Shown piece by piece: positions 126 through 26,386 of a DNA stretch of 35,975 bases; position 1 is the stretch's first letter, and every line of letters starts with the position of its first letter. The stretch covers positions 1-35,975 of the forward strand of contig NZ_JAQMTY010000070.1 in assembly GCF_028330765.1 (NCBI RefSeq), given 5' to 3'. This stretch comes from Spirulina subsalsa CS-330 (GTDB lineage Bacteria > Cyanobacteriota > Cyanobacteriia > Cyanobacteriales > Spirulinaceae). A model generated the notes under the pieces. It was not told where the DNA came from, made no database searches, and saw only the letters and a list, made by a program, of their open reading frames with translations. The position numbers were made by a program, and so were the translations under genes.

Positions 126-130
126 ACATT

Positions 131-1318: not shown

Positions 1319-1444
1319 GGTGCGACTGGCAAAATGAACAGGATTTCATTATGCCTGAATTTGATGCCTCTCCTGCTGCGATCGCAAGGGTCGGTCATGA
1401 TGAGGGTGCATCCCAGTCATGCAACCCGTCACTGTCTTTTCCCT

Positions 1445-2071
1445 CTAGAGCACGCCTTTAGAGCTAGGGATTTGGTGGGCGCGGCGGGGATCGACTTCGA
1501 CGGCCATGCGGAGGGCGCGGGCGAAGGCTTTGAAGGTGGCTTCAATGATGTGGTGGGAGTTGACCCCGGCGCGTTGGGTGATGTGGAGGGTGAGTTGGCT
1601 ATGGTTGACGATCGCCACGAAAAACTCGCGCACCAGTTGCGTATCGTAAGTGCCGACGCGCTCGGTGGGAATCTCCAGGCCATAACTGAGGTGGGGCCGT
1701 CCGGAAAAGTCGAGCACTACTTCGACGAGGGCTTCGTCAAGGGGGGCGATGAAATGGCCGAAGCGGTGAATCCCTTTGCGATCGCCCAAGGCTTGGGCCA
1801 AGGCCATGCCGAGGGTAATCCCCACATCTTCGTTGGTGTGGTGGTCGTCAATTTCCCAATCGCCGTGGGCGTGGATGTCGAGGTCTACCAAGCCGTGGGA
1901 GGCGATTTGATGGAGCATGTGGTCAAGGAAAGGAATTCCGGTTTTGGTGCGACATTGACCTGTGCCATCAAGGGTAACGCTGACTTGCACATCCGTTTCG
2001 CCGGTTTTGCGGTGAACGCTGGCGGTGCGGTGCAGGCTGGGGACGGTGGCGGGGCGATCGCTAAGTTGCAT
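1445..2071 (-). CDS. hisB: Imidazoleglycerol-phosphate dehydratase
   Basis: It dehydrates imidazole glycerol phosphate to imidazole acetol phosphate in histidine biosynthesis, in the cytosol. The 208 residues match the usual length of the monofunctional enzyme. The two metal-binding signatures that define the family are present: HHTNED at about residues 77-82 and HHIIEA at about 173-178. [13 protein letters not shown] near 49-60 is also conserved. No phosphatase domain is fused, unlike the bifunctional enterobacterial enzyme. It lies 51 bp downstream of folP on the same strand, so the two may be co-transcribed, though their pathways are unrelated. Confidence 0.96.
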
Positions 2072-2122
2072 AGGGTTTGATGAGGAATGAGCAAGAATTA
2101 AAGATCTAGTATACGCAATGGC

Positions 2123-2977
2123 TCAACGCCACAACGCATCAGCGACGCGACAGACATCGCGGAGTTCTGGCACATCATGGACGCGCAGAATGTCGCAACG
2201 AGTGGCGATCGCCCCACAGGCCGCCGCCGCCGTGCCCCACACGCGCCGTTGTGGGTCGGGTTGATCGAGGATTTTACCGATAAAGCTTTTTCGGGACGGG
2301 CCCACGAGGAGCGGTGTATTCAGCCGGTCAAAGTCCCGCAGTTTTTGGATCAGTTCCACATTTTGCGCAGCGGTTTTGGCGAAACCAATGCCCGGATCGA
2401 GGATGAGGTGCGATCGCGCCACCCCCGCCGCCTCAGCCCTAGCGATCTGATGCTCAAAAAAGGCCCCAATCTCAGCGGTGAGGTCGGCGTAATCCGTCAG
2501 GGTTTGCATTGTGGCGGGAGTGCCGCGCAGGTGCATGAGGATATACGGCACGCCAAGCTGGGCCACGGTGGCGAATATCTCCGGGTCGAACGTGCCGCCG
2601 GAAATGTCGTTGACCAGATCCGCCCCGGCCTGAATCGCCGCTTCGGCCACGGCGGCGCGGGTGGTGTCAATGGAAATGGGGCGATGGGTGATCGTGCGGA
2701 TGCGTTCGATCACGGGAATCGTGCGGCTCAGTTCCGTTTCTAGAGAAATTTGTTCAGCGCCGGGGCGGGTGGATTGGCCGCCCACATCGATAATGTCCAC
2801 GTCGGCGGTGAGCATGGCTTGCACTTGCGCGATCGCAGCTTCGGGGCGATCGAACTGGCCGCCATCACTAAAACTATCGGGGGTGACATTGAGAATCCCC
2901 ATGATGTAAGTGCGCGACCCCCAGGCAAAGGTGCGATCGCGCAGCGTCAAAGGCGTTAAGCGTCGTGGATCATTCAT
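2123..2977 (-). CDS. folP: Dihydropteroate synthase
   Basis: It joins p-aminobenzoate to hydroxymethyl-dihydropterin diphosphate in folate synthesis. Conserved blocks appear in order: MGILNVTPDSFSDGG near residues 26-40 (pterin-site loop), DVGGQSTRPGAE (substrate loop 2), DPGIGFAKT, GPSRKSFIG, and a C-terminal LRVHDV. The frame is open to a GTG at 3034. I prefer the ATG at 2977 because it gives 284 residues, normal for the family, and an N-terminus (MNDPRRLTPL) like cyanobacterial homologues. The extra 19 residues of the longer form look unconserved. It follows tpiA on the same strand. Confidence 0.95.
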   Translation of the reverse strand: MNDPRRLTPLTLRDRTFAWGSRTYIMGILNVTPDSFSDGGQFDRPEAAIAQVQAMLTADVDIIDVGGQSTRPGAEQISLETELSRTIPVIERIRTITHRPISIDTTRAAVAEAAIQAGADLVNDISGGTFDPEIFATVAQLGVPYILMHLRGTPATMQTLTDYADLTAEIGAFFEHQIARAEAAGVARSHLILDPGIGFAKTAAQNVELIQKLRDFDRLNTPLLVGPSRKSFIGKILDQPDPQRRVWGTAAAACGAIATRCDILRVHDVPELRDVCRVADALWR

Positions 2978-3094
2978 CTCGCGTTTGATCACAGTGGTAT
3001 TCAGGGAGGCAGACCGCCGGGACAGCAATCCCACCAGAGCCTGAAACCCTGGCGGCTTCTGGCCTAAGCCTCTAGCCCATTTTCCCCTAGCTGA

Positions 3095-3820
3095 TTAGTG
3101 ATAGTTGACAATCCGCGCAAAATCATCTGCTGCCAGGCTCGCACCGCCCACTAAGGCCCCATCAATTTCCGGTTGTGCCATAATCTCATCCACATTTTCC
3201 GGCTTCACCGATCCCCCATATTGGATCGAAACACTAGGGTTCGTCAGTTGGTCACGAATCAGCCCGATCACCCGATTCGCCTCATCAGCGGCGCAGGTGT
3301 CTCCCGTTCCAATCGCCCAAATCGGTTCATAGGCAATCACCAAATTACTCTGATCAATGCCAGCCAGATCCAGGGCTAATTGCTTGCTGATCACGGCTTC
3401 AGTTTCCCCGGCATCGCGCTGGGCCTTCGTTTCACCCACGCAGAGGATCGGCGTTAACTGATAGCCCTGGGCAGCCTTGAGGCGAAGATTCACCGTCTCG
3501 TCCGTTTCCCCGAAATATTGCCGCCGTTCGCTATGGCCAATAATCACATAGCTCACCCCGACTTCCTTTAACATCGGCCCGGACACTTCACCGGTATAGG
3601 CTCCCACTTCTTCCCAGTGGACATTCTGCGCCCCCAGGCGAACCCGACTCCCGTGCAGATTTTGGGACATCGAATCGAGGGCCGTAAAGGGGGAGCAGAG
3701 AATAATCCCACGGGTGGGGTCTGTCTCTTCAATGGCCGGTAAAAAACTCTGGAGAAACGCTTTCGCTTCTGCCTGAGTTTTATACATTTTCCAGTTTCCC
3801 GCGATCAGAATTTTGCGCAC
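3095..3820 (-). CDS. tpiA: Triose-phosphate isomerase
   Basis: It interconverts dihydroxyacetone phosphate and glyceraldehyde 3-phosphate in glycolysis and the Calvin cycle. At 241 residues it is a full-length TIM barrel. AGNWKM at residues 7-12 carries the catalytic lysine, IIGHSERR holds the electrophilic His96, [11 protein letters not shown] holds the catalytic base Glu165, and YGGSV near the end is the phosphate-binding loop. The start is a GTG at 3820; the family-typical N-terminus [12 protein letters not shown] begins exactly there. It heads the tpiA-folP-hisB run and is divergent from idi, sharing a 176-bp upstream region. Confidence 0.97.
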
Positions 3821-3922
3821 AGTTAAACAGAATGGTTAAGTGAATTTGTGATTTTATCAGTTTAAGTTGTTGTGGGTGTTAAGGCTAGCGGGCAGGTGAT
3901 GGAACTGACAAACTGCACGCGG

Positions 3923-3958
3923 TCAGCATCTCCATCTATATCAGCATCTCCATCTATA
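3923..3958. repeat. Perfect 18-bp tandem duplication between tpiA and idi
   Basis: The unit TCAGCATCTCCATCTATA occurs twice head to tail at 3923-3940 and 3941-3958 with no mismatch. It lies in the divergent promoter region, 39 bp before the idi start. It could be a duplicated regulatory site or a recent slippage event; the sequence alone does not decide. Confidence 0.9.
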
Positions 3959-3996
3959 GTGGATCTGTTGACACTCGCCCCTGACTCACACCATCC

Positions 3997-5031
3997 ATGA
4001 CCCCCACGACTCAGACCCGTAAAGCGGAACATATTCGGATTTGTCTGGAAGAGGATGTTCAATGCCGCCAACAAACCACGGGCTTTGAACAGTATCGCTT
4101 CAATCATCATTGCTTGCCGGAACTGGACTACGATGAAATTGACATTAGCACGTCGTTTTTGGGTAAATCCCTCAACGCGCCCCTGCTGATTTCCTCGATG
4201 ACCGGCGGCACGGAGGAAGCCCACCGGATTAATCACAATTTGGCGGCGATCGCTCAAGAATACGGCCTCGCCATGGGGGTGGGTTCTCAGCGGGTGATGG
4301 TGGAACGGCCGGAGGTAACGAAAACCTTTGCAGTGCGGACGGTGGCCCCGGATATTCTCCTGTTTGCGAACCTTGGCGCGGTGCAGCTTAACTACACCTA
4401 CGGGATTGATCAATGTCGCCAGGTGGTGGATTGCCTCGAAGCCGATGCCCTGATTCTCCATCTCAACCCGCTGCAAGAATGTATTCAGCCCAATGGCGAT
4501 CGCAATTTTCGCGGTCTACTGCAAAAAATCGAAACGGTTTGCCATCAATTGCCCGTGCCGGTGATTGCCAAAGAAGTGGGCAATGGGATTTCGGCGGCGA
4601 TGGCCCAACGGCTGTTAAACGCAGGGGTGAAGGCGATCGATGTGGCCGGTGCGGGGGGAACCTCCTGGGCTAAGGTGGAAAGTGAGCGGGCTGAAACCCT
4701 GTTGCAGCGCCGCTTAGGGCGAACATTTTCAGATTGGGGGCTGCCGACGGCGGAATGTTTGGTGACGGTGCGCCATCTCTTGCCCCAGTTGCCGTTGATT
4801 GCGTCGGGTGGCATTCGCGACGGGCTAGAGGGGTCGAAGGCGTTGGCCTTGGGGGCGGATTTGGTGGGGTTGGCGATGCCCTTTTTGCGGGCGGCAGCGG
4901 AGTCGGAAACAGCGGTGGCGGAATTGGTGCAACTGCTCCAGGCAGAAATCGCTACAGTATTATTCTGTACAGGCAACCGCACGATCGCAGACTTACAACA
5001 ATCTCAATCGTTGCGTCACTTATCAGCATAA
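3997..5031 (+). CDS. fni: Type 2 isopentenyl-diphosphate isomerase (FMN-dependent)
   Basis: It interconverts IPP and DMAPP, balancing the precursors of carotenoids, phytol and quinones. The 344 residues match the type II (Fni/Idi-2) TIM-barrel flavoprotein family, not the Nudix-type Idi-1. Characteristic stretches include LISSMTGGT near residues 65-73, the glycine-rich [27 protein letters not shown] with the conserved Gln/Glu of the active site, [17 protein letters not shown], and the FMN phosphate-binding IASGGIRDG. It is 16 bp upstream of sppA on the same strand, so the two probably share a transcript. Confidence 0.95.
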
Positions 5032-5047
5032 GCAGGATTTAAAAGCG

Positions 5048-6832
5048 ATGTGGAAGTTTTTGCGGGATGTGAGTGCGAGCGCGATTGGAACCATTACTGC
5101 TGTGGTGTTCCTGGTGTTGCTCGGTACGGGGGCGGGTTTGGTGGTGGTGGTGGCATTGTTGGCGACGACGGAGGATGTGGAAGAACCGACGGTGCGCGAT
5201 CGCTCCATTCTCGTCCTCGACCTCTCCACCCCGATCCGCGACAGTCAATTACTCGATGAATTCACCGAAGCGATCGCCGTCGAAACCAATACCATCACCC
5301 TCCGCCAAGCAAAAATTGCCCTCGCCGAAGCGGCCCAGGATGATCGCATCGTCGGACTGCTGATCGATGGAAGCGGCGGTGAAGCGGGGATGGGGTTTGC
5401 GACGGCCCAAGCTCTACGCCCTGCCCTGACTGCCTTTCAAGAATCGGGTAAGCGGGTGATGGCCTATGACGTGGATTGGAGCGAGGGGGATTACTACCTC
5501 GGTTCCGTGGCGGATACGGTGGTGATTAATCCCATGGGCGAGTTGGAATTTAATGGCCTCGGTGCAGAGCAAACCTTTTTAACGGGAGCTTTGGAAAAGT
5601 TCGGCGTGGGGGTGCAGGTGGTGCGGGCGGGGAACTATAAATCAGCGGTCGAACCGTTTATTGAAACGGAATTTAGTGCCGCGAGTCGGGAACAGTTGAC
5701 GGCCCTTTTAGGGGATCTATGGCAGGAATTTTTAACAGCGGTGGGGCGCGATCGCAACCAAACCCCCGCCGCCCTGCAACAGATTGCCGCCACCCAAGGC
5801 TTCCTTTTACCCGAAACCGCCGTCCAAGCGCAACTCGTCGATCAAGTCGCCTATTTTGACGAAGTTGCCGCCGAACTGCGTACCCTCACGGAACAAGAGG
5901 AGGAGCCAAAACAGCAATTTCGCCATGTCACCTTGGCCAACTATCGCAGCGAAGTGGCCGATGCGATCGCCGGAGACGATGCCGAGCAAAAGATCGCGAT
6001 TCTCTACGCTGCCGGGGAAATCGTCTACGGCGAAGGCGAAGTGGAGCAAATCGGGAGCGATCGCCTCATTCGCCAGATTCGAGACCTGCGCCGCGATGAG
6101 GATGTCAAAGCGATCGTGTTGCGGATTAACAGTCCGGGGGGGAGTGCCACCGCGTCAGACCTGATTTTGCGAGAACTCCAACTCACCCGTGAACAAAAAC
6201 CGATCATCGTTTCTATGGGGAATGTTGCCGCGTCGGGGGGCTACTGGATTGCCCTAGAGTCCGATCGCATCTTTGCCGAAAGCACCACGATCACCGGTTC
6301 CATCGGTGTATTTGGTCTCTTGCCCAACTTGGAAGGCATTACCACCGAAAACGGCATCACCTGGGACAGCGTCAAAACCGCGCCCTTTGCCGATATTGAC
6401 ACCATTGCCCGCCCCAAAACCGAAGCCGAACTCGCCACCATTCAGCAATTCGTGGATCAGATTTACAATCTGTTTCTGGATAAAGTGGCGCGATCGCGAT
6501 CCATGCCTCGGTCTGAAGTGGCGGCGATTGCCCAAGGGCGAGTCTGGTCGGGCAGTGATGCGGCGGCCAATGGATTGGTGGATCAGATTGGCGGTTTGGA
6601 AGATGCGATCGCCTACGCCGCCGCAACCGCCGAATTGGGGGACGATTGGCAAGTGGAAGAATATCAAAACGAACTCACCTTTGAAGAATTCCTTTTCCGC
6701 ACCTTCTCCATCCAAGACACCACGCCCCTCACCCAAGAATGGGTTAAACTCCACACCCAACTCCAACAACTCACCCGCTTCAGCGACCCCCGCCACCTCT
6801 ATTCCATCGCCCCCACCCTCACCATCCGCTAA
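5048..6832 (+). CDS. sppA: Signal peptide peptidase SppA, long (67K) type
   Basis: This membrane-bound serine protease degrades signal peptides; in cyanobacteria SppA has also been linked to thylakoid and phycobilisome turnover under light stress. At 594 residues it is the duplicated long form, with one N-terminal membrane anchor (about residues 10-40) and two tandem S49 domains. The catalytic dyad is visible: Lys198 in AGNYKSAVEPF of the first domain and Ser396 in NVAASGGYW of the second. INSPGGSATASD near 360-370 is the family substrate-binding block. A strong hairpin terminator follows within about 20 bp, suggesting that the idi-sppA unit ends here. Confidence 0.94.
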   Translation: MWKFLRDVSASAIGTITAVVFLVLLGTGAGLVVVVALLATTEDVEEPTVRDRSILVLDLSTPIRDSQLLDEFTEAIAVETNTITLRQAKIALAEAAQDDRIVGLLIDGSGGEAGMGFATAQALRPALTAFQESGKRVMAYDVDWSEGDYYLGSVADTVVINPMGELEFNGLGAEQTFLTGALEKFGVGVQVVRAGNYKSAVEPFIETEFSAASREQLTALLGDLWQEFLTAVGRDRNQTPAALQQIAATQGFLLPETAVQAQLVDQVAYFDEVAAELRTLTEQEEEPKQQFRHVTLANYRSEVADAIAGDDAEQKIAILYAAGEIVYGEGEVEQIGSDRLIRQIRDLRRDEDVKAIVLRINSPGGSATASDLILRELQLTREQKPIIVSMGNVAASGGYWIALESDRIFAESTTITGSIGVFGLLPNLEGITTENGITWDSVKTAPFADIDTIARPKTEAELATIQQFVDQIYNLFLDKVARSRSMPRSEVAAIAQGRVWSGSDAAANGLVDQIGGLEDAIAYAAATAELGDDWQVEEYQNELTFEEFLFRTFSIQDTTPLTQEWVKLHTQLQQLTRFSDPRHLYSIAPTLTIR

Positions 6833-6842
6833 CCCCCCGCGC

Positions 6843-6879
6843 AAAAAAACGCTCCCCTGATTCCACAGCGGAGCGTTTT
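6843..6879. terminator. Rho-independent terminator after sppA
   Basis: AACGCTCC at 6848-6855 pairs with GGAGCGTT at 6870-6877 around a 14-nt loop. Seven As precede the stem and Ts follow it, so it can work on both strands. It starts 11 bp after the sppA stop. Confidence 0.85.
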
Positions 6880-6924
6880 CGGTTCAACGAGTCCAGATCG
6901 GGCATCGGTTCAATGCAGTCTAGT

Positions 6925-7045
6925 GCAGCGTCAATGCAAAGAATTAGGATGTTGGTAGGGTGCTGTTAGCGAAGCGTAACGCACCGTCACGTTGAGTGTT
7001 GGACATTCAATACAATCCGAATATTAAGTCTTGACTCTGTACTAG
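6925..7045 (+). repeat. Dispersed repeat, copy 1 (about 120 bp, uninterrupted)
   Basis: The block starting at GCAGCGTCAATG and containing GTAGGGTGCTGTTAGCGAAG, TAACGCACCGT, TTGGACATTCAA and AAGTCTT is present again near 26149-26386. The two copies agree over most of their length with scattered substitutions, but the second has about 107 bp inserted. The core GTTAGCGAAGCGTAACGC is an imperfect palindrome. Both copies start shortly after the 3' end of a gene. Confidence 0.85.
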
Positions 7046-7051
7046 GACAGG

Positions 7052-7071
7052 CAAGGGGCTTAAGCCCCTTG
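7052..7071. repeat. 20-bp palindrome CAAGGGGCTTAAGCCCCTTG, copy 1
   Basis: This is a perfect palindrome, preceded by AGGACAGG and followed by TTCC. The same 20 bases recur exactly at 18562 and 34925, with degenerate forms at 10600 and 15485. All copies lie between genes. Confidence 0.9.
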
Positions 7072-7146
7072 TTCCTAGACATACCCTTGTCCTAAGCAAC
7101 CTAACTACGGCTATATAGCGAATTACGAAAAGAGGAGAACACCACC

Positions 7147-7177
7147 TCCCCCTTTTTAAGGGGGATTGAGGGGGATC
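7147..7177. repeat. Intergenic CCCCCTT/AAGGGGG hairpin repeat, copy 1
   Basis: TCCCCCTTTTTAAGGGGGATTGAGGGGGATC forms a short G/C-clamped hairpin followed by a second GGGGGATC. Related sequence occurs several times at 10470-10555 after uvrA. Such elements are common between cyanobacterial genes. Confidence 0.8.
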
Positions 7178-7545
7178 TCTTGTGAGTATTGTGTCTAATT
7201 AAGATCGAGATTTCCTCCCCTTGTTTGCTCACTTTCGCTGATTCACATGGTATTGAGAATGATGATCATCTTTCCCCAATTCAGACAAAATTTCTTCATT
7301 ATCAAACAGAATTAGGCATTAATCTATTACATCAATCTTCAAAAATTCTACAGGGTTAATCAAAAAAGAATTCTATCCGTTGATGTTAACTAAACCCTCT
7401 TACCGAGTAGGCCATTCATCATCCGTATTAACGTTCATCGAAAAAAAAAGGAAACTCACCGCAGAGCGGAGGGCCGCCCGCCCCGCCCTGAACAAAGCGA
7501 TCGCAAGGGGCTAGAATTGTTAAGGACTGTTAACCCCCTGCCCCT

Positions 7546-10419
7546 ATGTCAGAGCCATTGAACCTATCCGACTCGCTGCCGATGCCTGCTGATCCCGCAG
7601 GAACCGCCCGGAATGTGATTCGGATTCGTGGCGCACGGCAGCATAATCTAAAAAATATTGACCTGGATTTACCCCGCGATCGCCTCATCGTCTTTACCGG
7701 GGTATCGGGTTCGGGGAAGTCGTCCCTCGCCTTTGATACGATTTTTGCTGAAGGGCAGCGGCGGTATGTGGAATCCCTCAGCGCCTATGCGCGGCAGTTT
7801 TTGGGGCAGTTGGATAAACCCGATGTGGATGCGATCGAGGGGTTGAGTCCCGCCATTTCCATTGATCAAAAGTCCACCTCCCACAATCCACGCTCGACGG
7901 TGGGCACGGTGACGGAAATTTACGACTATTTGCGGCTGCTGTTTGGGCGGGCGGGGTTGCCCCATTGCCCCCACTGCGATCGCAGCATTGCCCCCCAGAC
8001 CATTGATGAAATGTGCGATCTGGTGCTGGCCCTGCCCGATCGCACTCGCTTTCAAGTCTTAGCCCCCGTGGTGAAAGGGAAAAAAGGAACCCATAAAAAA
8101 CTCCTCTCCAGCCTAGCCAGTGAAGGATTTGTGCGGGTGCGAATTAATGGTGAAATTCGCGAACTCAGTGATGCGATCGAGTTAAAAAAGAATCACAGCC
8201 ATTGCATCGAAATTGTGATTGATCGCCTGATCAAAAAAGAGGGTCTTCAGGAACGATTAGCAGACTCCCTCGCCACCGCCTTAAAACACGCCGAAGGCAC
8301 AGCAATTATCGCCACTGATGACCAAGAATTGGTCTTTTCAGAAAACTTTGCTTGCCCGGAACATGGGGCGGTAATGGATGAATTGTCGCCGCGTTTATTC
8401 TCGTTCAATTCCCCCTACGGCGCTTGTCCCCATTGTCACGGCATCGGCAGCCTCCGCACCTTCACGCCGGAATTAATTATTCCTGACCCAACCCAACCGC
8501 TGTATAGTGCGATCGCGCCTTGGTCTGACAAAGACAACGCCTACTATCTCTCACTGCTCCACAGCATCGGCCAAGCCTATGATTTTGAAATCCAAACCCC
8601 CTGGGATCGCCTCAGCGACGAACAACGCCACGTCTTGCTTTACGGTGCAGACCAACCGATCCAGATGGAATCCGACCCCTATCGCGGCAAAGGCTACTAC
8701 CGTAATTTTGCGGGCATCCTGGCCATGCTCGAACGCGCCTATGCAGACACCAGTTCAGAAACCTATAAACAAAAACTCGAACAATATATCGTCTTTCAAA
8801 CCTGCGAAATCTGTCACGGGCAACGCTTAAAACCCGAAAGCTTGGCCGTGCGTCTGGGGCAATACAACATCATTGAACTGACGAGCATGCCGATCCGCGT
8901 TGCCCTCGATCGGATCAATCATCTTGACCTCACCCCACGCCAAGCGATGATCGGCACCTTGGCGTTAAAAGAGATTCGCGATCGCCTTCAATTCCTCCTT
9001 GATGTGGGCTTGGATTATCTCACCCTCGATCGCGCCGCCATGACCCTCTCCGGCGGTGAAGCCCAACGCATCCGCCTCGCCACCCAAATCGGTTCCGGCC
9101 TGACGGGGGTGCTCTACGTCCTCGATGAACCCAGCATCGGCCTCCACCAACGAGATAACGATCGCCTCCTTGGGACATTGCGCAAACTCCGCGACCTCGG
9201 CAACACCTTGATCGTCGTCGAACATGACGAAGACACGATCCGCGCCGCCGATCACATCGTTGATATTGGCCCCAAAGCCGGGGTGCATGGGGGTGCGATC
9301 GTCTGTGCCGGGAGTTTTGACGATCTGCTCCAGACCGAAGCCTCCTTAACCGGGGCCTATCTCTCCGGACGGCGCACCATCGACACCCCCCCCGAACGCC
9401 GTAAAGGGAACGGTCGCACCCTCAAACTCAAAGACTGCCACCATAACAACTTGCAGCATCTCGATGTAGACATTCCCTTGGGTAAATTAGTCGCGGTGAC
9501 CGGGGTATCGGGTTCGGGAAAATCCACCCTCGTGAATGAACTCCTCTACCCCGCCCTGCAACACCATTTCACCAAAAAGACCCCCTTTCCCACCCATCTC
9601 GGCAAAATCGACGGCCTCAACGCCGTGGATAAGGTGATCGTCATCGATCAATCCCCCATTGGCCGCACCCCCCGCTCCAACCCCGCCACCTATACCGGCA
9701 TTTTCGACTCAATTCGCGCCCTCTTCGCGGAAACCATCGAAGCCAAAGCGCGGGGCTACAAGCAGGGGCGATTCTCGTTCAATGTCAAGGGGGGACGCTG
9801 TGAAGCCTGTAGCGGCCAAGGGGTGAACGTGATTGAGATGAATTTTTTGCCCGATGTCTATGTGCAGTGCGAAGTGTGCAAGGGCACGCGCTATAACCGC
9901 GAGACGTTGCAGGTGAAATACAAAGGGTTTTCCATTGCCGATGTGTTGGGGATGACCGTTGAAGAGGCGTTACAAACCTTTGAAAAAATCCCCAAGGCGG
10001 CCACCCGGTTACAAACCCTGATGGATGTGGGGTTGGGCTATGTACGCCTCGGTCAACCTGCGCCGACGCTGTCCGGTGGGGAAGCGCAGCGGGTCAAACT
10101 TGCGTCGGAACTGTCGCGCCGCGCCACGGGTAAGACGTTGTACCTGATTGATGAACCGACGACGGGGCTATCGTTTTACGATGTGCATCACTTGCTCAAT
10201 GTGTTGCAGCGGTTGGTGGATAAGGGCAATTCGGTGCTCGTGATTGAGCACAATTTAGATGTGATTCGCTGTGCGGATTGGTTGATCGACCTGGGGCCGG
10301 AGGGGGGCGATCGCGGCGGCCAAATTGTGGCGATCGGCACACCGGAAACCGTGGCGGCCCATGGAAAATCCTACACCGGCCAGTATTTGCGATCGGTGTT
10401 GAAGTCGGCCCAACCCTAA
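7546..10419 (+). CDS. uvrA: Excinuclease ABC subunit A
   Basis: It is the damage-recognition ATPase of nucleotide excision repair and loads UvrB on lesions. The 957 residues are full length, with two ABC modules. The first Walker [10 protein letters not shown], is at about residues 52-60, and the first signature, [12 protein letters not shown], near 503. The second Walker [10 protein letters not shown], is near 655, and the second signature, [12 protein letters not shown], near 844. Zinc-finger cysteines appear as CPHC near residue 143, CPHCHG near 294 and CEAC/CEVC near 751-780. The ATG gives a short unconserved leader before the conserved [16 protein letters not shown]. No other repair gene is adjacent, which is usual for uvrA. 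Confidence 0.98.
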
Positions 10420-10469
10420 CCCGTGCCTAGGAACCTACTGCTGATACACAACTTGCAAATACTGACATT

Positions 10470-10560
10470 GATCCCCCTGAATCCCCGATCCCCCTGAATC
10501 CCCCTTAAAAAGGGGGACTTTGAATGACTCCCCCTTTTTTAAGGGGGGCTGGGGGGAATC
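10470..10560. repeat. Cluster of GGGGGATT/CCCCCTT repeats, likely also the uvrA/ycf3 terminator
   Basis: AAAAAGGGGGA at 10507-10517 pairs over 11 bp with TCCCCCTTTTT at 10529-10539, with an 11-nt loop. CCCCCTTAAAAAGGGGG at 10500-10516 and CCCCCTTTTTTAAGGGGGG at 10530-10548 are additional self-complementary units. The first three ATCCCCCTGAATCCCC-type units are tandem. The cluster lies between the convergent uvrA and ycf3 ends, so it could terminate both. Confidence 0.75.
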
Positions 10561-10599
10561 GAGTTGAAATCGATTGAGGATAATCAGTAGGCCTAGAAA

Positions 10600-10619
10600 C
10601 AAGGGACTGAAGCCCCTTG
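10600..10619. repeat. 20-bp palindrome family, degenerate copy 2
   Basis: CAAGGGACTGAAGCCCCTTG differs from the perfect palindrome at two positions. It is preceded by CCTAGAAA and followed by CCTCATCC. It lies 26 bp from the 3' end of ycf3. Confidence 0.75.
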
Positions 10620-10644
10620 CCTCATCCTGCGCGTTGTTCAACGC

Positions 10645-11166
10645 TTAGAAAAACACATCCATTTCTGAGCGGCCCGTGGTTTTTAACCAGTTTTGCGCTT
10701 CGATGTAGTTATTGGGGGTGATGCGGATGGCTTGTTTCCAATATTCGGCGGCGCGATCGTAGAACGATTCAGCCAGGTCGCTGTTGCCCGCTTCCTGAGC
10801 CTGATCCCCTTGGTAGTGGTAGATCACGGCGATGTTATTGAGGGCTTGGGGCATGTTGGGGTTGAGTTCGATCGCCTCGTGATAGTAGCGCAGGGCGACT
10901 TCATGATCGCCGTTGCTGGCGTGAATCAGGCCGATGTTGTAGAGGATATAGCAGCGATCGGCCGCTTCATCTTCGAGTTTCAGGGCTTCGTGATAGTTGT
11001 CGAGGGCTTCGGCATATTCGCCATCGGCTTGGGCAGACATCCCATCACGATAATAGGCAAAGGCTTCTTTGGATTTTTGATTGGTGGGCAGAATCTTGAG
11101 GATGATGTCTGCCATGACGGTAAAGCTTTTATCAATAAAGTTATCGTTGCGTTGGGTGCGTGGCAT
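10645..11166 (-). CDS. ycf3: Photosystem I assembly protein Ycf3
   Basis: Ycf3 is a thylakoid-peripheral TPR chaperone needed to assemble photosystem I, contacting PsaA and PsaD. The 173 residues match the family. The N-terminus [20 protein letters not shown] is diagnostic. Three TPRs follow: about residues 35-68 ([20 protein letters not shown]), 72-105 ([20 protein letters not shown]) and 109-150 ([18 protein letters not shown]). The C-terminus ([13 protein letters not shown]) is also typical. It is transcribed alone and is divergent from the DUF4336 gene, with 158 bp between the starts. Confidence 0.97.
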
Positions 11167-11324
11167 AGGGATAAATTGAGAATTTCAATCGGAATTGTGT
11201 ATTTAGTGTAGTGTATGCCAGCCGCCCGTTGAATCGCACGGTCTTCACCTGGGAACAGCAACCCCCTAAATCCTTCAACCACTCCGATAAAATGAAAGGC
11301 TGAACCCTTGGTAACTGACTGGGC

Positions 11325-12506
11325 ATGACCAAAACCGCCGCAATTTCCGCGCAAACCGCCGATCGCCGCTGGCCCTATTGGCCGATTGTGCCGATTTATC
11401 CCTACGGGCAACGCCGCACCCTGCGCCGGGAGCTAGTCCCGGATTGGATTTGGGTGTTTGAGCAGGTGCAGGGGATTTTTTATGTGGTGGTTCCGATTCG
11501 GATGACGGTGGTACGACTGGAGGCGGGGGGCTTGTTGGTCTATGCGCCGGTGGCTCCGACGGGGGAATGTTTAGGGTTATTGCGGGAACTGTGCGATCGC
11601 TTCGGGGACGTGCGCTATATTATCCTGCCGACGATTTCCGGCATCGAGCATAAGGTATTCATTGGCCCCTTTGCCCGTCGGTTCCCGGCTGCAACGGTGT
11701 TTGTGGCCCCCGGTCAATGGAGTTTTCCGGTGAATTTACCCCTGAGTTGGTTGGGCTGCCCCTGGGGACGCACGGAAATTTTGCCCCCGGAACGCTCCGC
11801 AACGCCCTTTGCGGCTGAGTTTGATTATGAAATTTTGGGGCCGTTACCGTTGGGATTGGGGAAATTTGGCGAAGTGGTGTTTTATCATCGGCGATCGCGC
11901 ACTCTCCTGGCCACGGATACGATCCTCTCCGTCCCTCCCGATCCGCCGGAGGTGGTGCAGCTTGACCCCTACCCCCTCCTCTTCCACGCCAAAGACGGAG
12001 CCGCCGACCCGATCCGCGACACCCCCAGCAACCGCCAAAAAGGTTGGCAGCGGATCTGTCTCTTTGCCCTCTATTTTCGCCCCGCGACCTTGGAAACGAT
12101 CGAGCTTGGCCCCGCCTGGCAGGAGGCAAAACAGGGGAGCGATCGCACCCGCCGGGCTTATTTCGGCCTCTATCCCTTCGCCTGGCAAGCCGGATGGCGC
12201 GACACCTTCGCCGCCCTCAGCCATAACGAAACCCTGCGCGTTGCCCCCATCCTCCAAACCCTGATTTTGAACCGCGATCCGGTAGCGGTTCGGAGTTGGT
12301 GCGATCGCGTCGCCCGCTGGCCCTTCGAGCGGATTATTCCCTGTCATTTCAGCGCTGCGATCGCCGCCACCCCCCACGATTGGCGCGAAGCCTTTCAATT
12401 CCTCACCCCCAACCCCGCCCAAACGTTACCCGCCGCCGATCTCCAAGTCCTACGGGATATCGATCGCCGCCTCATCGATCTCAAGGTCACGCCCCCGCCT
12501 GCGTAA
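11325..12506 (+). CDS. DUF4336 domain-containing protein
   Basis: This 393-residue soluble protein belongs to a family widespread in cyanobacteria and plants. Conserved stretches include WIWVFEQVQGIFYVVVPIRM near residues 43-63, YIILPTISGIEHKVFIGPF near 104-122, and APGQWSFPVNLP near 132-143. A two-strand core followed by an H-x-V/E-type segment has led to comparison with the metallo-beta-lactamase fold, but the usual HxHxDH zinc motif is absent. I therefore assign no reaction. The second half, HIP1-rich and proline-rich, is less conserved. There is no operon partner: ycf3 is divergent and the next plus-strand gene starts 128 bp downstream. Confidence 0.75.
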   Translation: MTKTAAISAQTADRRWPYWPIVPIYPYGQRRTLRRELVPDWIWVFEQVQGIFYVVVPIRMTVVRLEAGGLLVYAPVAPTGECLGLLRELCDRFGDVRYIILPTISGIEHKVFIGPFARRFPAATVFVAPGQWSFPVNLPLSWLGCPWGRTEILPPERSATPFAAEFDYEILGPLPLGLGKFGEVVFYHRRSRTLLATDTILSVPPDPPEVVQLDPYPLLFHAKDGAADPIRDTPSNRQKGWQRICLFALYFRPATLETIELGPAWQEAKQGSDRTRRAYFGLYPFAWQAGWRDTFAALSHNETLRVAPILQTLILNRDPVAVRSWCDRVARWPFERIIPCHFSAAIAATPHDWREAFQFLTPNPAQTLPAADLQVLRDIDRRLIDLKVTPPPA

Positions 12507-12634
12507 TCGGTGGGCTTGACTGGGTGGGGTAGGCGCGATCGTGTTTGCCGACTGAACATTGCAAAGCGTTGCGGGGGGACAGTCTCCCGGAAAAAACTGG
12601 ATCATAATAGGGCTGGTATCAGTTCACGGGTTGA

Positions 12635-14425
12635 GTGGCTATGGTGTGGCAGTCAGTGCGGACGGGTTTGGGTGGTTTGATGGTGTTGGCTTTGGTGGGT
12701 TGTGAGGAACATTGCAAACCCCTTGAGCGTGGTGTTTTGCTGGCCCAGATTCAGCCGAGTGTAGTGCGGATTACCTACGGGGATCAAAAGGGGCAGGGGA
12801 CAGGGTTCATCATTGCGGGGGAGGCGGGGGTTTGTACGGTGGCGACTTCGGCTCATGTGGTGAAGCCGAGTGATTTGATTTCGATTTCGCCCCATGATGT
12901 GGATACGGTGAGTCCGGGGGGGTTCCCGGCGCGGGCGGTGCAGTCGTCAGCGAATGGGATGGATGTGGCGATTATTACGTTTGATGCGCCGGGGGAGGGC
13001 TGTCCCTATGCGGCGTTGCCGTTGGGGGATTCGAGTCTGATTCAGCAGTTGGATCTGGTTTATCTGTTTGGTTTTCCGGATGGGGGTGAGAAGGCGCTTT
13101 ATCAGCAGCAGGTGGCGACGGGGGAAATTTCGGCGGTGGATGCGGGCAATGAGGGGGGGTATGACATCACCTATACGAGTACATCGGCGGCGGGGATGAG
13201 TGGGGGGCCGTTGGTGAATTTATGTGGTGGGGTGGTGGGGGTGCATGGTCAGGAGGATGCGGGGTTCCGGTTGGCGGTTCCGATTGCGAAGTTACAGGGG
13301 GAGTTGGCGGGGATGTTGGCGCAGTTGCCGGTGGTGGCGGTGGGGACGGCGAAGGCGTTGTATGAGAAAGGAGCGGCGTTGCTCAATGAGAAAAAATATG
13401 AGGAGGCTCTACCCTATTTTGCGCGGGCTTTGGCTCTCGATTCGAGCGATGCCGTGACCTGGTTTGAGCAGGGTTTAGCATCATATCATTTAGAGAAATA
13501 TCAAGAATCAATCGCCTCCTATGACAGAGCGATCGCCATTAATCCTAACTATACTTTCGCTTGGCATAACCGTGGCGTTTCATTCAGTAAGTTAGAACAA
13601 TATCAAGAAGCGATCGCCTCCTATGACAAAGCGATCCTGATTAATCCCGATTATGCTTTGGCTTGGAATGGACGTGGTGCTGCGTTCGCAAAGTTAGAGC
13701 AATACCAAAGCGCGATTTTTTTCTACGACAGAGCGATCGCCATTAATCCTGATTTTGCTGAGGCTTGGTCTAACCGTGGTGCTTCGTTAGCAGCGTTAGG
13801 GAAACACGAAGAAGCGATCGCCTCCTATGACAAAGCGATCGCCATTAATGAAAATTATGCCGATGCTTGGGTTGCCCGTGGCATTTCGTTACGCAATTTA
13901 GAGAAATACGAAGACGCGATCGCCTCCTATGACAGAGCGATCGCCATTAATCCTGATTATGCTGATGCTTGGGTTGCCCGTAGCATTTCGTTACGCAATT
14001 TAGAGAAATACGAAGACGCGATCGCCTCCTATGACAGAGCGATCGCCATTAATCCTGATTATGCTGATGCTTGGGTTGCCCGTGGCGTTGCGTTACGCAA
14101 TTTAGAGAAATACGAAGAAGCGATCGCCTCCTATGACAGAGCGATCGCCATTGATCCTGCTTATGCTATGGCTTGGTATAACCGTGGCCTTTCGTTACGC
14201 AAGTTAGAGAAATACGAAGAAGCGATCGCCTCCTATGACAAAGCGATCGCCATTAATCCTGATTATGCGCATGCTTGGGTTAGTAAAGGATGGAGTTTAC
14301 ATTTGCTGAATCGTAATCAAGAAGCACTCGTTGCTACCGATAAAGCACTAGCAATTGATCCAAATAATACATACGCCCAAAACAACCGCAAAACCATCCT
14401 CGCAAAACTCAACCCCTCCCCCTAA
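12635..14425 (+). CDS. Lipoprotein with trypsin-like protease domain and C-terminal TPR array
   Basis: The 596-residue protein has a signal peptide ending in a lipobox-like LVGC (Cys23), so it is probably membrane-anchored outside the cytoplasm. Residues 35-225 form a trypsin-like S1 domain with a readable triad: His74 in VATSAHVV, Asp110 in NGMDVAII and Ser189 in GMSGGP. Residues about 240-590 are roughly ten TPRs of 34 residues each, with consensus AWVARGISLRNLEKYEDAIA followed by SYDRAIAINPDY. The units from 13862 to 14167 are nearly identical at the DNA level. Base composition changes at about 13370: the protease part is rich in GGG/GTG codons and the TPR part is A/T-richer, suggesting a modular origin. 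The natural substrate is unknown. The TPRs probably bind partner proteins. Confidence 0.85.
   Translation: MAMVWQSVRTGLGGLMVLALVGCEEHCKPLERGVLLAQIQPSVVRITYGDQKGQGTGFIIAGEAGVCTVATSAHVVKPSDLISISPHDVDTVSPGGFPARAVQSSANGMDVAIITFDAPGEGCPYAALPLGDSSLIQQLDLVYLFGFPDGGEKALYQQQVATGEISAVDAGNEGGYDITYTSTSAAGMSGGPLVNLCGGVVGVHGQEDAGFRLAVPIAKLQGELAGMLAQLPVVAVGTAKALYEKGAALLNEKKYEEALPYFARALALDSSDAVTWFEQGLASYHLEKYQESIASYDRAIAINPNYTFAWHNRGVSFSKLEQYQEAIASYDKAILINPDYALAWNGRGAAFAKLEQYQSAIFFYDRAIAINPDFAEAWSNRGASLAALGKHEEAIASYDKAIAINENYADAWVARGISLRNLEKYEDAIASYDRAIAINPDYADAWVARSISLRNLEKYEDAIASYDRAIAINPDYADAWVARGVALRNLEKYEEAIASYDRAIAIDPAYAMAWYNRGLSLRKLEKYEEAIASYDKAIAINPDYAHAWVSKGWSLHLLNRNQEALVATDKALAIDPNNTYAQNNRKTILAKLNPSP
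13500..14280 (+). repeat. 102-bp tandem repeats (TPR-coding) carrying paired HIP1 octamers
   Basis: The 102-bp units encode one 34-residue TPR each. I count 13 intact GCGATCGC octamers between 13529 and 14252. In most units two octamers sit about 21-23 bp apart and encode the AIA of AIASYD and of AIAIN. Three consecutive units (about 13862-13963, 13964-14065, 14066-14167) differ at only a few bases, which points to recent duplication or gene conversion. Confidence 0.9.
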
Positions 14426-14429
14426 CCCC

Positions 14430-14648
14430 ATGGACTACCAAACCCTCATCACCATTGAACCCGACAAACGCAGCGGTAAACCCTGCATTCGAGGAATGCG
14501 CATCACCGTTTACGACATCCTCGAATACTTCGCAGGCGGCATGACCGAAGCCGAAATTCTCGAAGACTTCTCTGAATTAACCCCTGAAGATATTAAAGCC
14601 TGCGTCATGGCTACGGACAGCGAACAATCATCTCACCCCAAAGAGTAG
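14430..14648 (+). CDS. DUF433 domain antitoxin-like protein
   Basis: This 72-residue protein matches the DUF433 family: ITIEPDKRSGKPCIRGMRIT at residues 7-26, then VYDILEYFAGGMTEAEILED and a final LTPEDIKAC. DUF433 proteins are small helix-turn-helix proteins, usually encoded just upstream of a PIN-like DUF5615 toxin. Here no DUF5615 gene follows; a 57-residue ORF does. The frame is open upstream to 14355, inside the TPR gene, but the ATG at 14430 gives the family N-terminus and begins 4 bp after the TPR gene stop. That spacing suggests co-transcription with the protease/TPR gene. It may be an orphan antitoxin or a plain regulator. Confidence 0.8.
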   Translation: MDYQTLITIEPDKRSGKPCIRGMRITVYDILEYFAGGMTEAEILEDFSELTPEDIKACVMATDSEQSSHPKE

Positions 14649-14654
14649 ACACAG

Positions 14655-14828
14655 ATGAAAACAACTAAGCTCAATGTTGACTTCATGGCCCACCGTGAAC
14701 AGTGCAACATCCAAACCTATCAAGCCGTTCACGGTAAACCCTACAGCGATCAAATTAACTATGATCGTGAGCAAATTGCCCAGAGCCGACTCGCTCAACT
14801 TTGGCAATCACTCAATCACAACGCCTAA
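14655..14828 (+). CDS. Small hypothetical protein, 57 residues
   Basis: The frame runs from ATG 14655 to TAA 14826-14828. It starts 6 bp after the DUF433 stop and ends directly next to the stop of the convergent COP23 gene, with no base between them. The translation begins MKTTKLNVDFMAHREQCNIQ and is polar, rich in Gln, Asn and His, with no membrane segment. I do not recognise it. Its position, where a DUF5615 toxin usually sits, makes it worth noting, but it is too short for and unlike that PIN-like fold. Confidence 0.5.
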   Translation: MKTTKLNVDFMAHREQCNIQTYQAVHGKPYSDQINYDREQIAQSRLAQLWQSLNHNA

Positions 14829-15395
14829 TCAATCCTCCGCCAACACACCCGCTAACGGAATACTCGCCGGTTGCTCCAGCGTAATCTCCGCCGAACTTTG
14901 ATAACTCCCCGGATTCCCCGGCATCAACGCCCCCGCCACCCGCTGCAACGCCGCCATTGCCTCCGCCTCATCCCCCGGCACAAGCGTCACCACAGGCGGA
15001 CAGCCCTGCGTCACCTTCGTTCGCGCACAGATCACCCATTGCTTCGGTGTATTCTCATCCGGACGATACTCAAACGACAGTAGCCCCGCCTCCTTATAGA
15101 TGTTCATACGATCCGAGATGTCACGACAGCGAGACTCTGTATTCCAACCGTCGCCCATTTCCTCCACCATGTACAGCCACTCCTTCGGCTGCTTGCCCGG
15201 CCTTTCATACAACACCGTCCAAATTTGCTGGGCCGTAGTGGAATTCGGGTTAGATCGTAACGAACAAATAAACTGACTCTCCACCGAAACCGTTAACGGC
15301 ACTCGACCCGCATACATCGTCCAACCGAGTGTCACTAAGCCCAACACCAAGCCCGCAATCCCAATCCATACTGTTTTCTTCTCTTCAGCCGCCAT
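14829..15395 (-). CDS. COP23 domain protein (circadian oscillating protein family)
   Basis: The 188-residue protein has an N-terminal membrane segment at about residues 10-28 (VWIGIAGLVLGLVTLGW) that anchors it. The outer domain has the family pattern: FICSL near 44, a central WTVLY, ESRCRDISDRMN near 86-97, a GLLSFEY strand, WVICART near 118, and QGCPPVVTLVPGDEAEA near 129-145. The spaced cysteines in these blocks are typical of COP23, named for a 23-kDa circadian oscillating protein of Cyanothece. The biochemical role is unknown. It is transcribed toward the 57-residue ORF, and the two stop codons touch. Confidence 0.78.
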   Translation of the reverse strand: MAAEEKKTVWIGIAGLVLGLVTLGWTMYAGRVPLTVSVESQFICSLRSNPNSTTAQQIWTVLYERPGKQPKEWLYMVEEMGDGWNTESRCRDISDRMNIYKEAGLLSFEYRPDENTPKQWVICARTKVTQGCPPVVTLVPGDEAEAMAALQRVAGALMPGNPGSYQSSAEITLEQPASIPLAGVLAED

Positions 15396-15484
15396 GATTC
15401 CCCAGGGGAACGTTGATTTTTAGAAAACTACAATCCCAATTCATTGTATTCCATAGCACCATCCAAACAGATATAGGAACCGAA

Positions 15485-15578: not shown

Positions 15579-15596
15579 GCCGTTAGCCCTGCCCTC

Positions 15597-15661
15597 CACC
15601 GCCCCCAGTCTAGCCCAGATGTTAGGAGCGGCGCGATGGGTTTCAAAAACTGTAACGAGCG
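15597..15661 (+). repeat. Island repeat, copy A (diverged)
   Basis: CACCGCCCCCAGTCTAGCCCAGA at 15597-15619 is identical to the core of copies B (16312) and C (17165). The following GCGCGAT, CAAAAAC and GTAACGAGCG also align loosely with copy C. It lies 3' of toxin gene 1, just beyond its stop codon. Confidence 0.75.
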
Positions 15662-15663
15662 GA

Positions 15664-15924
15664 CTAACCCTCATAAATATCTCGACGATGCCCCACCTTG
15701 ATTACCCGGATGATCAAGGCGCGATCTTCCACCTGATAGATAATGCGGTAATTGCCCCAACGCAAACGATACTCATCCGCTCGTCCCTTTAACTTTTTGC
15801 ACCCCGCAGGTCTCGGATCAATTGCGAGATTTTCGATCACCGCGATCAATGCTTTTTGGACTTCAGGGGTCAGCTTCTTCAATTGCCGCTGTGCCGCTGA
15901 CTGGATGACGATTTGATAGCTCAT
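15664..15924 (-). CDS. RelE/ParE-family toxin, module 1
   Basis: The 86-residue protein has the family layout: a start MSYQIVIQSAAQRQLKKL, the helix VQKALIAVIENLAIDPRP, a GCKKLKG strand, then the C-terminal block YRLRWGNYRIIYQVED and the terminal VGHRRDIYEG. These Arg/Tyr positions are typical of the RelE/ParE superfamily. Members either cut mRNA at the ribosome (RelE) or poison gyrase (ParE); I cannot say which from sequence. Its ATG overlaps the antitoxin stop by 4 bp (ATGA), the coupling usual in such modules. Confidence 0.9.
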   Translation of the reverse strand: MSYQIVIQSAAQRQLKKLTPEVQKALIAVIENLAIDPRPAGCKKLKGRADEYRLRWGNYRIIYQVEDRALIIRVIKVGHRRDIYEG

Positions 15925-16157
15925 TCTAAACCGAGTGTTTGCTTGAAGCTAGCCAAAGACACTTCTCCCGGTTCTGCCAACGCAACTGCGGCATCAAAAC
16001 TATCGATTTCATCCTCTAAAACTTCAAGACATTGCTCAAAATCCAAGCCGTATTTGAATTGTAGATACTGTAAAAAATGATAAATTTCATCGATCGCAGC
16101 GCGATTTAAGGCAGGTAACGTCAGGGTAATCGGTTCAGTGCGAGGTAAAGTCGTCAT
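15921..16157 (-). CDS. Antitoxin of module 1
   Basis: A 78-residue acidic protein encoded directly upstream of the toxin and overlapping it by 4 bp. Its sequence (TEPITLTLPALNRAAIDEIY near residues 7-26, then FLQYLQFKYGLDFEQCLEVL) fits no named antitoxin family that I can assign safely. The acidic composition, small size and gene order support the antitoxin role. No good ribosome-binding site precedes the ATG. By analogy with other modules it probably represses its own promoter. Confidence 0.75.
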   Translation of the reverse strand: MTTLPRTEPITLTLPALNRAAIDEIYHFLQYLQFKYGLDFEQCLEVLEDEIDSFDAAVALAEPGEVSLASFKQTLGLE

Positions 16158-16281
16158 TATAATTCAGGAGAAAATAAACGGACTCTTCTAGGCTAGCATT
16201 GGCCCATCATCACTATTGGCAACCTGAGCTATTTCCATCGTCGCAAAGCTCAACACCAGCAATGGCGTAATTAGCCCGTTA

Positions 16282-16349
16282 ATCGCTGCATCACCCTACC
16301 CCACAGCAAAACACCGCCCCCAGTCTAGCCCAGAGGTTGGGGTGCGATC
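16282..16349 (+). repeat. Island repeat, copy B
   Basis: The 61 bases 16282-16342 (from ATCGCTGCATCACCC to GAGGTTGGGG) are identical to 17135-17195. After one mismatch GCGATC also matches. Copy B lies in the divergent region between the two modules, just upstream of the module 2 promoter. Confidence 0.95.
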
Positions 16350-16374
16350 AGTTCGTTACCGAAATTGCAACCAA

Positions 16375-16380
16375 TATAAT
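16375..16380 (+). promoter_or_regulatory. Consensus -10 box (TATAAT) for toxin-antitoxin module 2
   Basis: A perfect TATAAT lies 29 bp before the antitoxin ATG. The -35 region at the usual spacing is TTCGTT (16352-16357), a weak match to TTGACA. That would fit a promoter controlled by the antitoxin-toxin complex. The -35 call is uncertain. Confidence 0.55.
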
Positions 16381-16409
16381 AGTCAGTATTACCTCTTCCC
16401 GATCACACC

Positions 16410-16601
16410 ATGACCGAACTCCTGCAAGCGGCGATCGCACAACTGCAACAACTCCCTACCCAAGAACAAGACCGCATTGCCAGCCGTTTACTCGATGAAC
16501 TCGAAGAACTTGCTGACATTCGTGCCTACGATACAGCCAAGCAGGCTCCTGATGAAGTTATTTCCTTCGAGCAGGCAATCCGCGAAATTGAGCGTGCATG
16601 A
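16410..16601 (+). CDS. Antitoxin of module 2 (RelB-like)
   Basis: The 63-residue acidic protein starts MTELLQAAIAQLQQLPTQEQ and continues DRIASRLLDELEELADIRAY. The N-terminal helix-rich part with the LP..EQ..IA..LLDELE pattern and the C-terminal DEVISFEQAIREIE segment are typical of small RelB-like antitoxins, whose C-terminal tail wraps around the toxin. It overlaps the toxin gene by 4 bp. The module is on the opposite strand to module 1 and diverges from it. Confidence 0.8.
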   Translation: MTELLQAAIAQLQQLPTQEQDRIASRLLDELEELADIRAYDTAKQAPDEVISFEQAIREIERA

Positions 16602-16852
16602 GCTATCAAATCAACATTTTGCGCCACGCTCAAAAATCTCTGAGCAAACTGCCGCAGGATGAATATGAACGCATTAAAGAGACAATTCAGTTGTTAGCGA
16701 CAACTCCTCGGCCTAACGGTAGCCGAAAGCTTACAGGACGTGAGGGTTGGCGACTTCGTGTGGGTGACTATCGTGTGATTTATGAGATTGATGACCCTCA
16801 AAAAACAATTACAGTGCTTTCCATTGGTCATCGGTGCGAAATATACCGTTGA
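16598..16852 (+). CDS. RelE-family toxin, module 2
   Basis: The 84-residue protein reads MSYQINILRHAQKSLSKLPQ at the start, has the helix EYERIKETIQLLATTPRPNG, the strand SRKLTGREGWRLRVGDYRVI, and ends LSIGHRCEIYR. The RVGDYRVIYEID block and terminal GHR.EIY are the RelE/ParE signature. It is a distant paralogue of the module 1 toxin: both begin MSYQI and both end in GHR.(D/E)IY, but most of the sequence between differs. That argues for separate acquisition or old duplication, not recent copying. Confidence 0.92.
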   Translation: MSYQINILRHAQKSLSKLPQDEYERIKETIQLLATTPRPNGSRKLTGREGWRLRVGDYRVIYEIDDPQKTITVLSIGHRCEIYR

Positions 16853-17287
16853 ATCTCTGAAACTCTATTAACCCCAACGCAAATAACGGAAACGGCACAA
16901 CCACCACATCACCCTTTACAAATTGCGCCATGCTTGATCCTCTTCCGGTTTCAGCCCGTCCCTTTAACTTTTCCCGTGAAGATCCAGAACCGCCCCGCGC
17001 CCTGGTTTAGGAAATTTGCCGATGGATGTACTCAAGGCAATACAAAGCGCGATCGCCTATACACTCAACCTCAAACTGAGCTAAAACCCTCAGTCTAATG
17101 GGAACGCCGCAAGACTCGACACCAGAGAGGCGCGATCGCTGCATCACCCTACCCCACAGCAAAACACCGCCCCCAGTCTAGCCCAGAGGTTGGGGCGCGA
17201 TCGCACCGTTGCAAAAACCGTAGCGATCGCCCCCAATCCCAAAAATCGTTGGGGTGCAAACCGCTGGGGGGTTCAACCCTAGGGGGG
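16853..17287. other. 435-bp gap with island repeat C and possible gene remnants
   Basis: I find no intact gene. A 27-codon frame begins at ATG 16930 (MLDPLPVSARPFNFSREDPE) and stops at TAG 17011-17013. Another begins at ATG 17022 (MDVLKAIQSAIAYTLNLKLS) and stops at TAA 17082-17084. Either could be a degraded gene, perhaps another small module. Copy C of the island repeat follows, then a HIP1-rich stretch up to the end of ycf54. Confidence 0.5.
17135..17202 (+). repeat. Island repeat, copy C
   Basis: Identical to copy B over 61 bases (17135-17195) and 853 bp from it. The two copies bracket module 2 as direct repeats. The bases after it (GCACCG, GCAAAAACCGTAGCGATCG) align loosely with copy A. 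Confidence 0.95.
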
Positions 17288-26148: not shown

Positions 26149-26386
26149 AGCGTCAATGCCAAGAATGAGGATACTTGTAGTGCCGTGGCACGTCTTAATC
26201 GGTGGGTTACGGCGGATTGCTAGATTGCAGTAATAGTCTGTATTTAAGCCGCCTAACCCACCCTACAATTCAGCATTATTTTAGCTGTGCCGTGGCAGTA
26301 GGGTGCTGTTAGCGAAGCGTAACGCACCGTTCCATTGAGCATTGGACATTCAAGACGATCCGAAGATGAAGTCTTAACGCTGCTAG
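26149..26386 (+). repeat. Dispersed repeat, copy 2, interrupted by a hairpin insertion
   Basis: The left part (AGCGTCAATGCCAAGAATGA, then GGATACTTG) and the right part (GTAGGGTGCTGTTAGCGAAG through GTCTTAACGCTGCTAG) match copy 1 at 6925-7045. Between them lie about 107 extra bases (26180-26297). Confidence 0.85.
26180..26297. mobile_element. 107-bp hairpin insertion (MITE-like) inside dispersed repeat copy 2
   Basis: The direct repeat GTGCCGTGGCA occurs at 26180-26190 and 26287-26297, bounding the extra segment. Inside, GGTGGGTTACGGCGG (26201-26215) pairs with CCGCCTAACCCACC (26249-26262), with one unpaired base. No ORF is inside. The absence of this segment from copy 1 supports insertion, although deletion from copy 1 is also possible. 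Confidence 0.65.

Follow-up and report, generated by a model that had tools for sequence, protein, structure and literature searches.

Our results suggest that the two toxin-antitoxin modules in the window, by which we mean the whole 35,975-nucleotide stretch of Spirulina subsalsa CS-330 DNA that was analyzed, are part of a wider and little-described cassette habit. We consider it probable that modules 1 and 2 are toxin-antitoxin cassettes bracketed by direct repeats and one instance of a practice found more widely in the genus. The 4.70-Mb genome that contains the window is referred to as G000 and three other genomes of the same genus as G001, G002 and G003, the last being a Spirulina MAG. 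In the window, module 1 lies between repeat copies A and B and module 2 between B and C, and the three copies have one common core, CACCGCCCCCAGTCTAGCCC, which is exact at 15597, 16312 and 17165, always on the plus strand. The features of the array are as follows:

15597 to 15656, plus strand: repeat copy A, consisting of the core and a diverged dyad, GTTTCAAAAACTGTAAC
15664 to 15924, minus strand: module 1 toxin of the ParE family, 86 aa (PF05016, E 6.2e-13)
15921 to 16157, minus strand: module 1 presumed antitoxin, 78 aa, upstream of the toxin, without a family match
16197 to 16300, minus strand: relic of a secreted-protein start to the left of B; visual inspection gave its extent and the broken frame in the window
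16282 to 16371, plus strand: repeat copy B, consisting of box 1 and the dyad GTTACCGAAATTGCAAC
16410 to 16601, plus strand: module 2 presumed antitoxin, 63 aa, upstream of the toxin, without a family match
16598 to 16852, plus strand: module 2 toxin of the ParE family, 84 aa (PF05016, E 2e-12)
16885 to 16956, minus strand: mazEF relic between B and C, comprising the end of mazE and the start of mazF, 94% identical over 72 nt to G000:C173:4896-4967
17135 to 17222, plus strand: repeat copy C, consisting of box 1 and the dyad-like GTTGCAAAAACCGTAGC

The first-pass annotation had placed A, B, C and both modules correctly, and its description of a core exact in all three copies, of B and C as direct repeats 853 bp apart and of the toxins as distant paralogues was confirmed. 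B and C are identical for 61 bp from 16282, and their similarity extends to 83 nt at 90%; copy A matches B and C over 30 nt at 93%, in addition to its diverged dyad. Both toxins score above the curated PF05016 cut-off and have a small gene upstream, so that by sequence the modules have the features of type II toxin-antitoxin systems of the ParE family, with toxicity as a predicted property. The presumed antitoxins gave no Pfam or NCBIfam match and show no significant likeness to each other, and the two toxins are 45% identical. The relic to the left of B has a counterpart in G002 with an open short frame, MQQLTGLIALLLVLSLATMGMAQ, and the relic at 16885-16956 matches the overlap of mazE and mazF on contig C173. 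The array is flanked by a COP23-family gene to the left and by ycf54 and pdxJ to the right. Searches of the window against Rfam (gathering threshold) and for tRNAs gave no matches, and the region 15590-17230 had no match in the plasmid and phage sets, leaving carriage by a phage or plasmid unsupported.

The suggestion that identical flanks allow cassette-like gain or loss is borne out, as regards gain and relocation, by the related genomes. Module 1 together with both of its repeats (15599-16373) is found in G002 at 1,876,453-1,877,229, and the ycf54-pdxJ locus of that genome (1,639,160), which is 237 kb from module 1, contains one repeat and no module. Contig C185 of G003 has module 2 between the same repeats with its toxin gene cut. 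The first-pass annotation had raised the case of an island without variation among relatives; the related genomes differ at this island. Common boundaries, which it had proposed as a check, are also seen. In the four ParE or recG-locus units that were compared, identity inside the unit was 0.91, 0.91, 0.75 and 0.77 (the boundary comparison for module 2 covers its first 431 nt only), and in all four it dropped within the 100 bp outside to 0.39-0.52, the level of the shuffled means (0.43-0.47). An XisHI unit with another repeat type, common to G002 and G003, is less sharply bounded, being only 0.56 identical inside and with similarity that continues past the left repeat (the 60 nt to the left of the core are 0.85 identical). 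That homology ends at the repeats in other genomes supports cassette-like gain and relocation. No clean empty site was found: to the left of the window array, synteny with G002 is broken (LysR in G002, COP23 in the window), and for window positions 1-15456 we saw only paralogue-like matches of 80-84% in that genome, except for a 216-nt stretch at 94%.

Simple insertion was considered and rejected for the repeat copies at C194 and dxs. Their G002 counterparts are alike only from about the octamer GCGATCGC onward and have other DNA upstream, which gives them the look of rearrangement junctions rather than of clean empty sites. The same octamer, a common palindrome, is the approximate point at which two copies without toxin-antitoxin genes (L107, about 619; L057, about 357) join G002-like DNA, as if at a rearrangement junction.

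Arrays of the same kind but built on other repeats are found at other loci. The recG-subtilase locus contains a second repeat, with four copies and three units in G000 and five copies and four units in G002. The G000 copies, at 3026, 3632, 4365 and 5138, surround an aspartyl-protease gene, ParDE-a and ParDE-2, and the five G002 copies surround ParDE-2, DUF4160 with DUF2442, ParDE-b and the protease gene; the two units common to both genomes, the aspartyl-protease gene and ParDE-2, are on the same strand and in reversed order. These shared units are 75-77% identical between G000 and G002, compared with 94% for recG and 82% for the subtilase gene, which suggests that they were acquired separately or lie in rapidly changing DNA rather than being simply inherited vertically. 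In G002, the ParDE-2 toxin contains a stop. A run of seven repeats in G002 sets apart MazEF, Rpn, XisHI and ParDE units, and on contig C22 of G000 three copies of a third repeat bracket a ParDE unit and an antitoxin-HNH unit. Units and repeat copies number 2/3, 3/4, 4/5 and 2/3 across the arrays, that is, n units to n+1 copies. Because Rpn, HNH and protease units are bracketed as well, a toxin is not required.

Two further loci suggest where a repeat can come from. At L197 in G002, the end of a DUF1667 gene is copied as a 67-bp repeat (98.5% identity) on the other side of the ParDE pair. At L228, on a plasmid of Pseudanabaena, a 192-bp repeat (96.9%) is formed by the start of a recD-like gene, and its copies are 852 bp apart from start to start. 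At both loci a long direct repeat of the target gene is present on the two sides, one copy in the intact gene and the other a remnant. The ParE protein of L228 is, among the matches listed, the best plasmid match of the module 1 toxin. Three other Pseudanabaena plasmids have a single recD start per record, with different upstream regions.

The extent of bracketing was surveyed by comparing the left and right flanks of the toxin, in direct orientation and with a threshold of 55 bits. The four genomes contain 33 PF05016 rows (14 in G000, 2 in G001, 11 in G002 and 6 in G003), and 30 loci were compared; the C173 module, which is bracketed by a diverged repeat pair, is among the three rows left out. 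At 14 of the 30 ParE loci the toxin was spanned by a direct repeat scoring 55 bits or more, mostly a repeat other than that of the window, and at the other 16 there was none. Two of the 14 (L214 and L217) resemble gene-scale duplication and minisatellite, and the 12 clean loci occupy nine sites and are not independent; one of them, L201, passes the threshold only narrowly (56.3 bits). Contig ends shortened six of the 30 loci, one of which is bracketed. The controls came from gene-rich regions originally fetched for other purposes: none of 197 overlapping sliding windows from the same genus reached 45 bits (best, 44.6), none of 58 intergenic-centered controls reached 55 bits and one reached 45, and of 26 pdxJ/ycf54 controls from other genera, one reached 55 (57.2 bits) and two reached 45. 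Bracketing is thus in excess over the controls, with a Fisher p of 2.3e-8 that serves as a guide only, since loci share arrays. Among eight cyanobacterial plasmid ParE loci, drawn from 15 cyanobacterial matches among the matches listed, one was bracketed.

The repeat in the window is longer than the core. Most copies have a box, CGCCCCCAGTCTAGCCCAG, followed after 33-34 nt by a dyad, GTTRCnnAAAnnGYAAC, which varies on both arms between repeat types (GTTAC/GTAAC, GTTGC/GCAAC). The conserved hairpin that we looked for in the repeat was rejected (z +1.36 for A, -2.10 for B and -4.58 for C). The core is rare: the 20-mer is exact at four places in the 4.70-Mb genome (A, B, C and C194:331), and allowing up to three mismatches gives six matches versus two for the reversed pattern. 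A first repeat profile, run on 14 genomes at E < 1e-5, detected copies only in G000 (4), G002 (9) and G003 (2), so that the core is clear in three of the genomes profiled. A second profile, which is partly circular because it was trained on 17 copies, was run on 8 of the 14 genomes and at E < 1e-4 gave 7 copies in G000, 11 in G002, 3 in G003 and none in G001; its best matches in other genera were 3.7e-4 and weaker, mainly to the dyad half. The 19-mer CGCCCCCAGTCTAGCCCAG was found in one Spirulina MAG contig out of 84,980 genomes, a set that possibly excludes records of the window's own genome, together with two matches within coding sequence that we read as chance, and in no viral contig.

The first-pass annotation had also considered that this repeat might repeatedly flank addiction modules, and as stated this part of its interpretation is not supported. 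The repeat flanks 3 of 14 ParE rows in G000 (including the diverged pair on C173), 1 of 11 in G002 and none of the 2 in G001 or the 6 in G003, and is carried by only three of the 12 clean loci (L201, L204 and L206); ParE genes are not usually flanked by it. Of the repeat copies, 5 of 7 in G000, 10 of 11 in G002 and 3 of 3 in G003 adjoin a toxin-antitoxin, XisHI or Rpn gene or relic, as judged by reading. The copies with no toxin-antitoxin neighbor are those on C53 and C194 in G000 and the ycf54 copy in G002. The core is, moreover, often upstream DNA of a gene for a secreted protein: translation revealed a signal-like start directed outward from 8 of 22 copies, so that in part the repeat is a duplicated upstream region.

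The explanation that we favor would work as follows. A unit of about 0.6-0.85 kb, consisting of one repeat copy and either a toxin-antitoxin pair or another small gene, lies between copies of a repeat of about 55-200 bp that differs by locus, giving arrays of n units and n+1 copies. Recombination between two copies, possibly of the RecA type, would release a unit in circular form. Such a circle, or incoming DNA, with one copy would then integrate where the same repeat is already present, in matching orientation; the two steps would lead to the gain, loss and reordering of units. The repeat is often a duplicated gene end or upstream region and not a dedicated element. Of this scheme, the bracketing, its excess over the controls, the common unit boundaries and, at one locus, a different order and content are observed; the circle, the RecA-type step and retention through addiction are inferred. 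Recombination between direct repeats would account for the orientation, the n+1 copies, the shared boundaries and the reordering, and toxin-antitoxin genes would be frequent there because segments between direct repeats are easily deleted and an addiction module punishes deletion. No recombinase, circle or transfer was seen for these arrays. More tentatively, cyanobacterial chromosomes may keep integron-like arrays without an integrase, in which addiction cassettes are captured successively at a locus-specific repeat derived from the end of a neighboring gene, exchanged between strains by recombination there and stabilized by addiction. It is a long-standing question how solitary chromosomal toxin-antitoxin pairs can move in the absence of a mobile element, and a unit order that differs between near relatives points to a direct and testable route, recombination at locus-specific repeats; addiction would explain which genes survive between the repeats.

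It is possible, if unlikely, that each module instead arrived through a single event of an unknown, transposition-like kind that left 55-200 bp of the target duplicated. Restriction-modification genes of Helicobacter insert with long target duplication, and the work of Nobusato and others in 2000 and of Furuta and others in 2010 is said to describe such insertion for restriction-modification genes. The likeness is that in both cases long direct copies of the target enclose addiction genes, and the gene ends at L197 and L228, each with an intact copy and a remnant, are what this explanation expects. Single duplications do not, however, give the same repeat three to seven times in arrays, at different loci and in different genomes, and here there are arrays of n units and n+1 copies, with units shared between loci. 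Nothing on target duplication was found in the available part of PMC4176335.

Somewhat more doubtful is the view that the repeat is nothing more than the promoter and upstream DNA of secreted TPR-CHAT genes of one family, and that toxin-antitoxin pairs lay between tandem paralogues whose TPR genes were later deleted, with no cassette involved. In its favor are the 8 signal-like starts (10 when B and the second copy on C173 are counted by eye), two of which continue into TPR-domain proteins, one also with CHAT. Repeat types with unrelated spacers retain box 1, the gap of 33-34 nt and a dyad in which both arms have changed, as expected of a regulatory site. This view leaves unexplained why other modules have other repeats (recG locus, C22, DUF1667 end and recD start), why homology in other genomes stops at both repeats and why the order is reversed at the recG locus.

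An integron-like array, with the repeats as attC sites worked by the genus's IntI integrase, is very improbable, even though the shared units are on the same strand in changed order, the recG-locus repeat has a hairpin and IntI scored above the curated cut-off in two of the four genus genomes (469.5 bits in G002, 460.8 bits in G001) and in none of 14 control genomes:

G002:C2:2699159-2700103 (L176): intI, above cut-off
G001:C467:2135-3082 (L177): intI, above cut-off
G000:C226:1015-1236 (L178): intI fragment

The attC box motif, RYYYAAC / GTTRRRY, was present in 1 of 30 repeat copies, compared with 2 of 1000 random segments, and on this basis the identity of the repeats with attC was rejected. 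No direct-repeat array was found beside intI in the fetched flanks (G002 at 2.699 Mb and G001:C467), the window's genome has an intI fragment only, and a hairpin is not conserved across A, B and C. CALINs lack intI by definition.

Among known systems, the closest is a ParE/ParD-like module of Microcystis aeruginosa PCC 7806, located between two 152-bp direct repeats and with a neighboring gene that differs between strains (PMC7935541). It resembles the loci described here in being a ParDE-type pair in a cyanobacterium with long identical direct repeats on either side; it is one locus with one unit, and the available part of that report describes no array or reordering. One such locus is therefore already known, and we found no report of toxin-antitoxin direct-repeat arrays or of unit reordering in the open-license literature. 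Integrons and dif modules work in a similar way, but the arrays here differ from each in a feature that was tested. The plasmid dif (pdif) modules of Acinetobacter, in the part of the source available, often contain toxin-antitoxin genes and are reshuffled between short sites of 28 bp, bound by XerC/XerD and alternating in orientation (PMC13141974), whereas our repeats are long, locus-specific and, within any one array, all oriented alike. Integron cassette arrays and CALINs, in the available part of PMC8618304, likewise contain toxin-antitoxin cassettes with a site at each, in contrast to the arrays here, in which attC boxes were not found and beside which there is no integrase.

Several minor observations concern the repeats. 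Without box 1, the dyad GTTACCnAAAnnGnAAC is also present upstream of further genes of the genus (L105, 5989; L108, 245; weaker in L077, L091, L101 and L150), and similar sequences are present in two other genera, making it a candidate regulator binding site. An element of about 120 bp next to CTAG (L055, 11690-11890; L133, 4230-4370), MITE-like by eye, interrupts one of the repeat copies and occurs again at a different locus of G002. Elsewhere in the window, eight overlapping 300-nt repeat matches in 102-nt steps (13386-14399) lie within the TPR part of a protease-TPR gene, and an 85-nt interspersed repeat is present at 6955-7039 and 26298-26382 with 87% identity.
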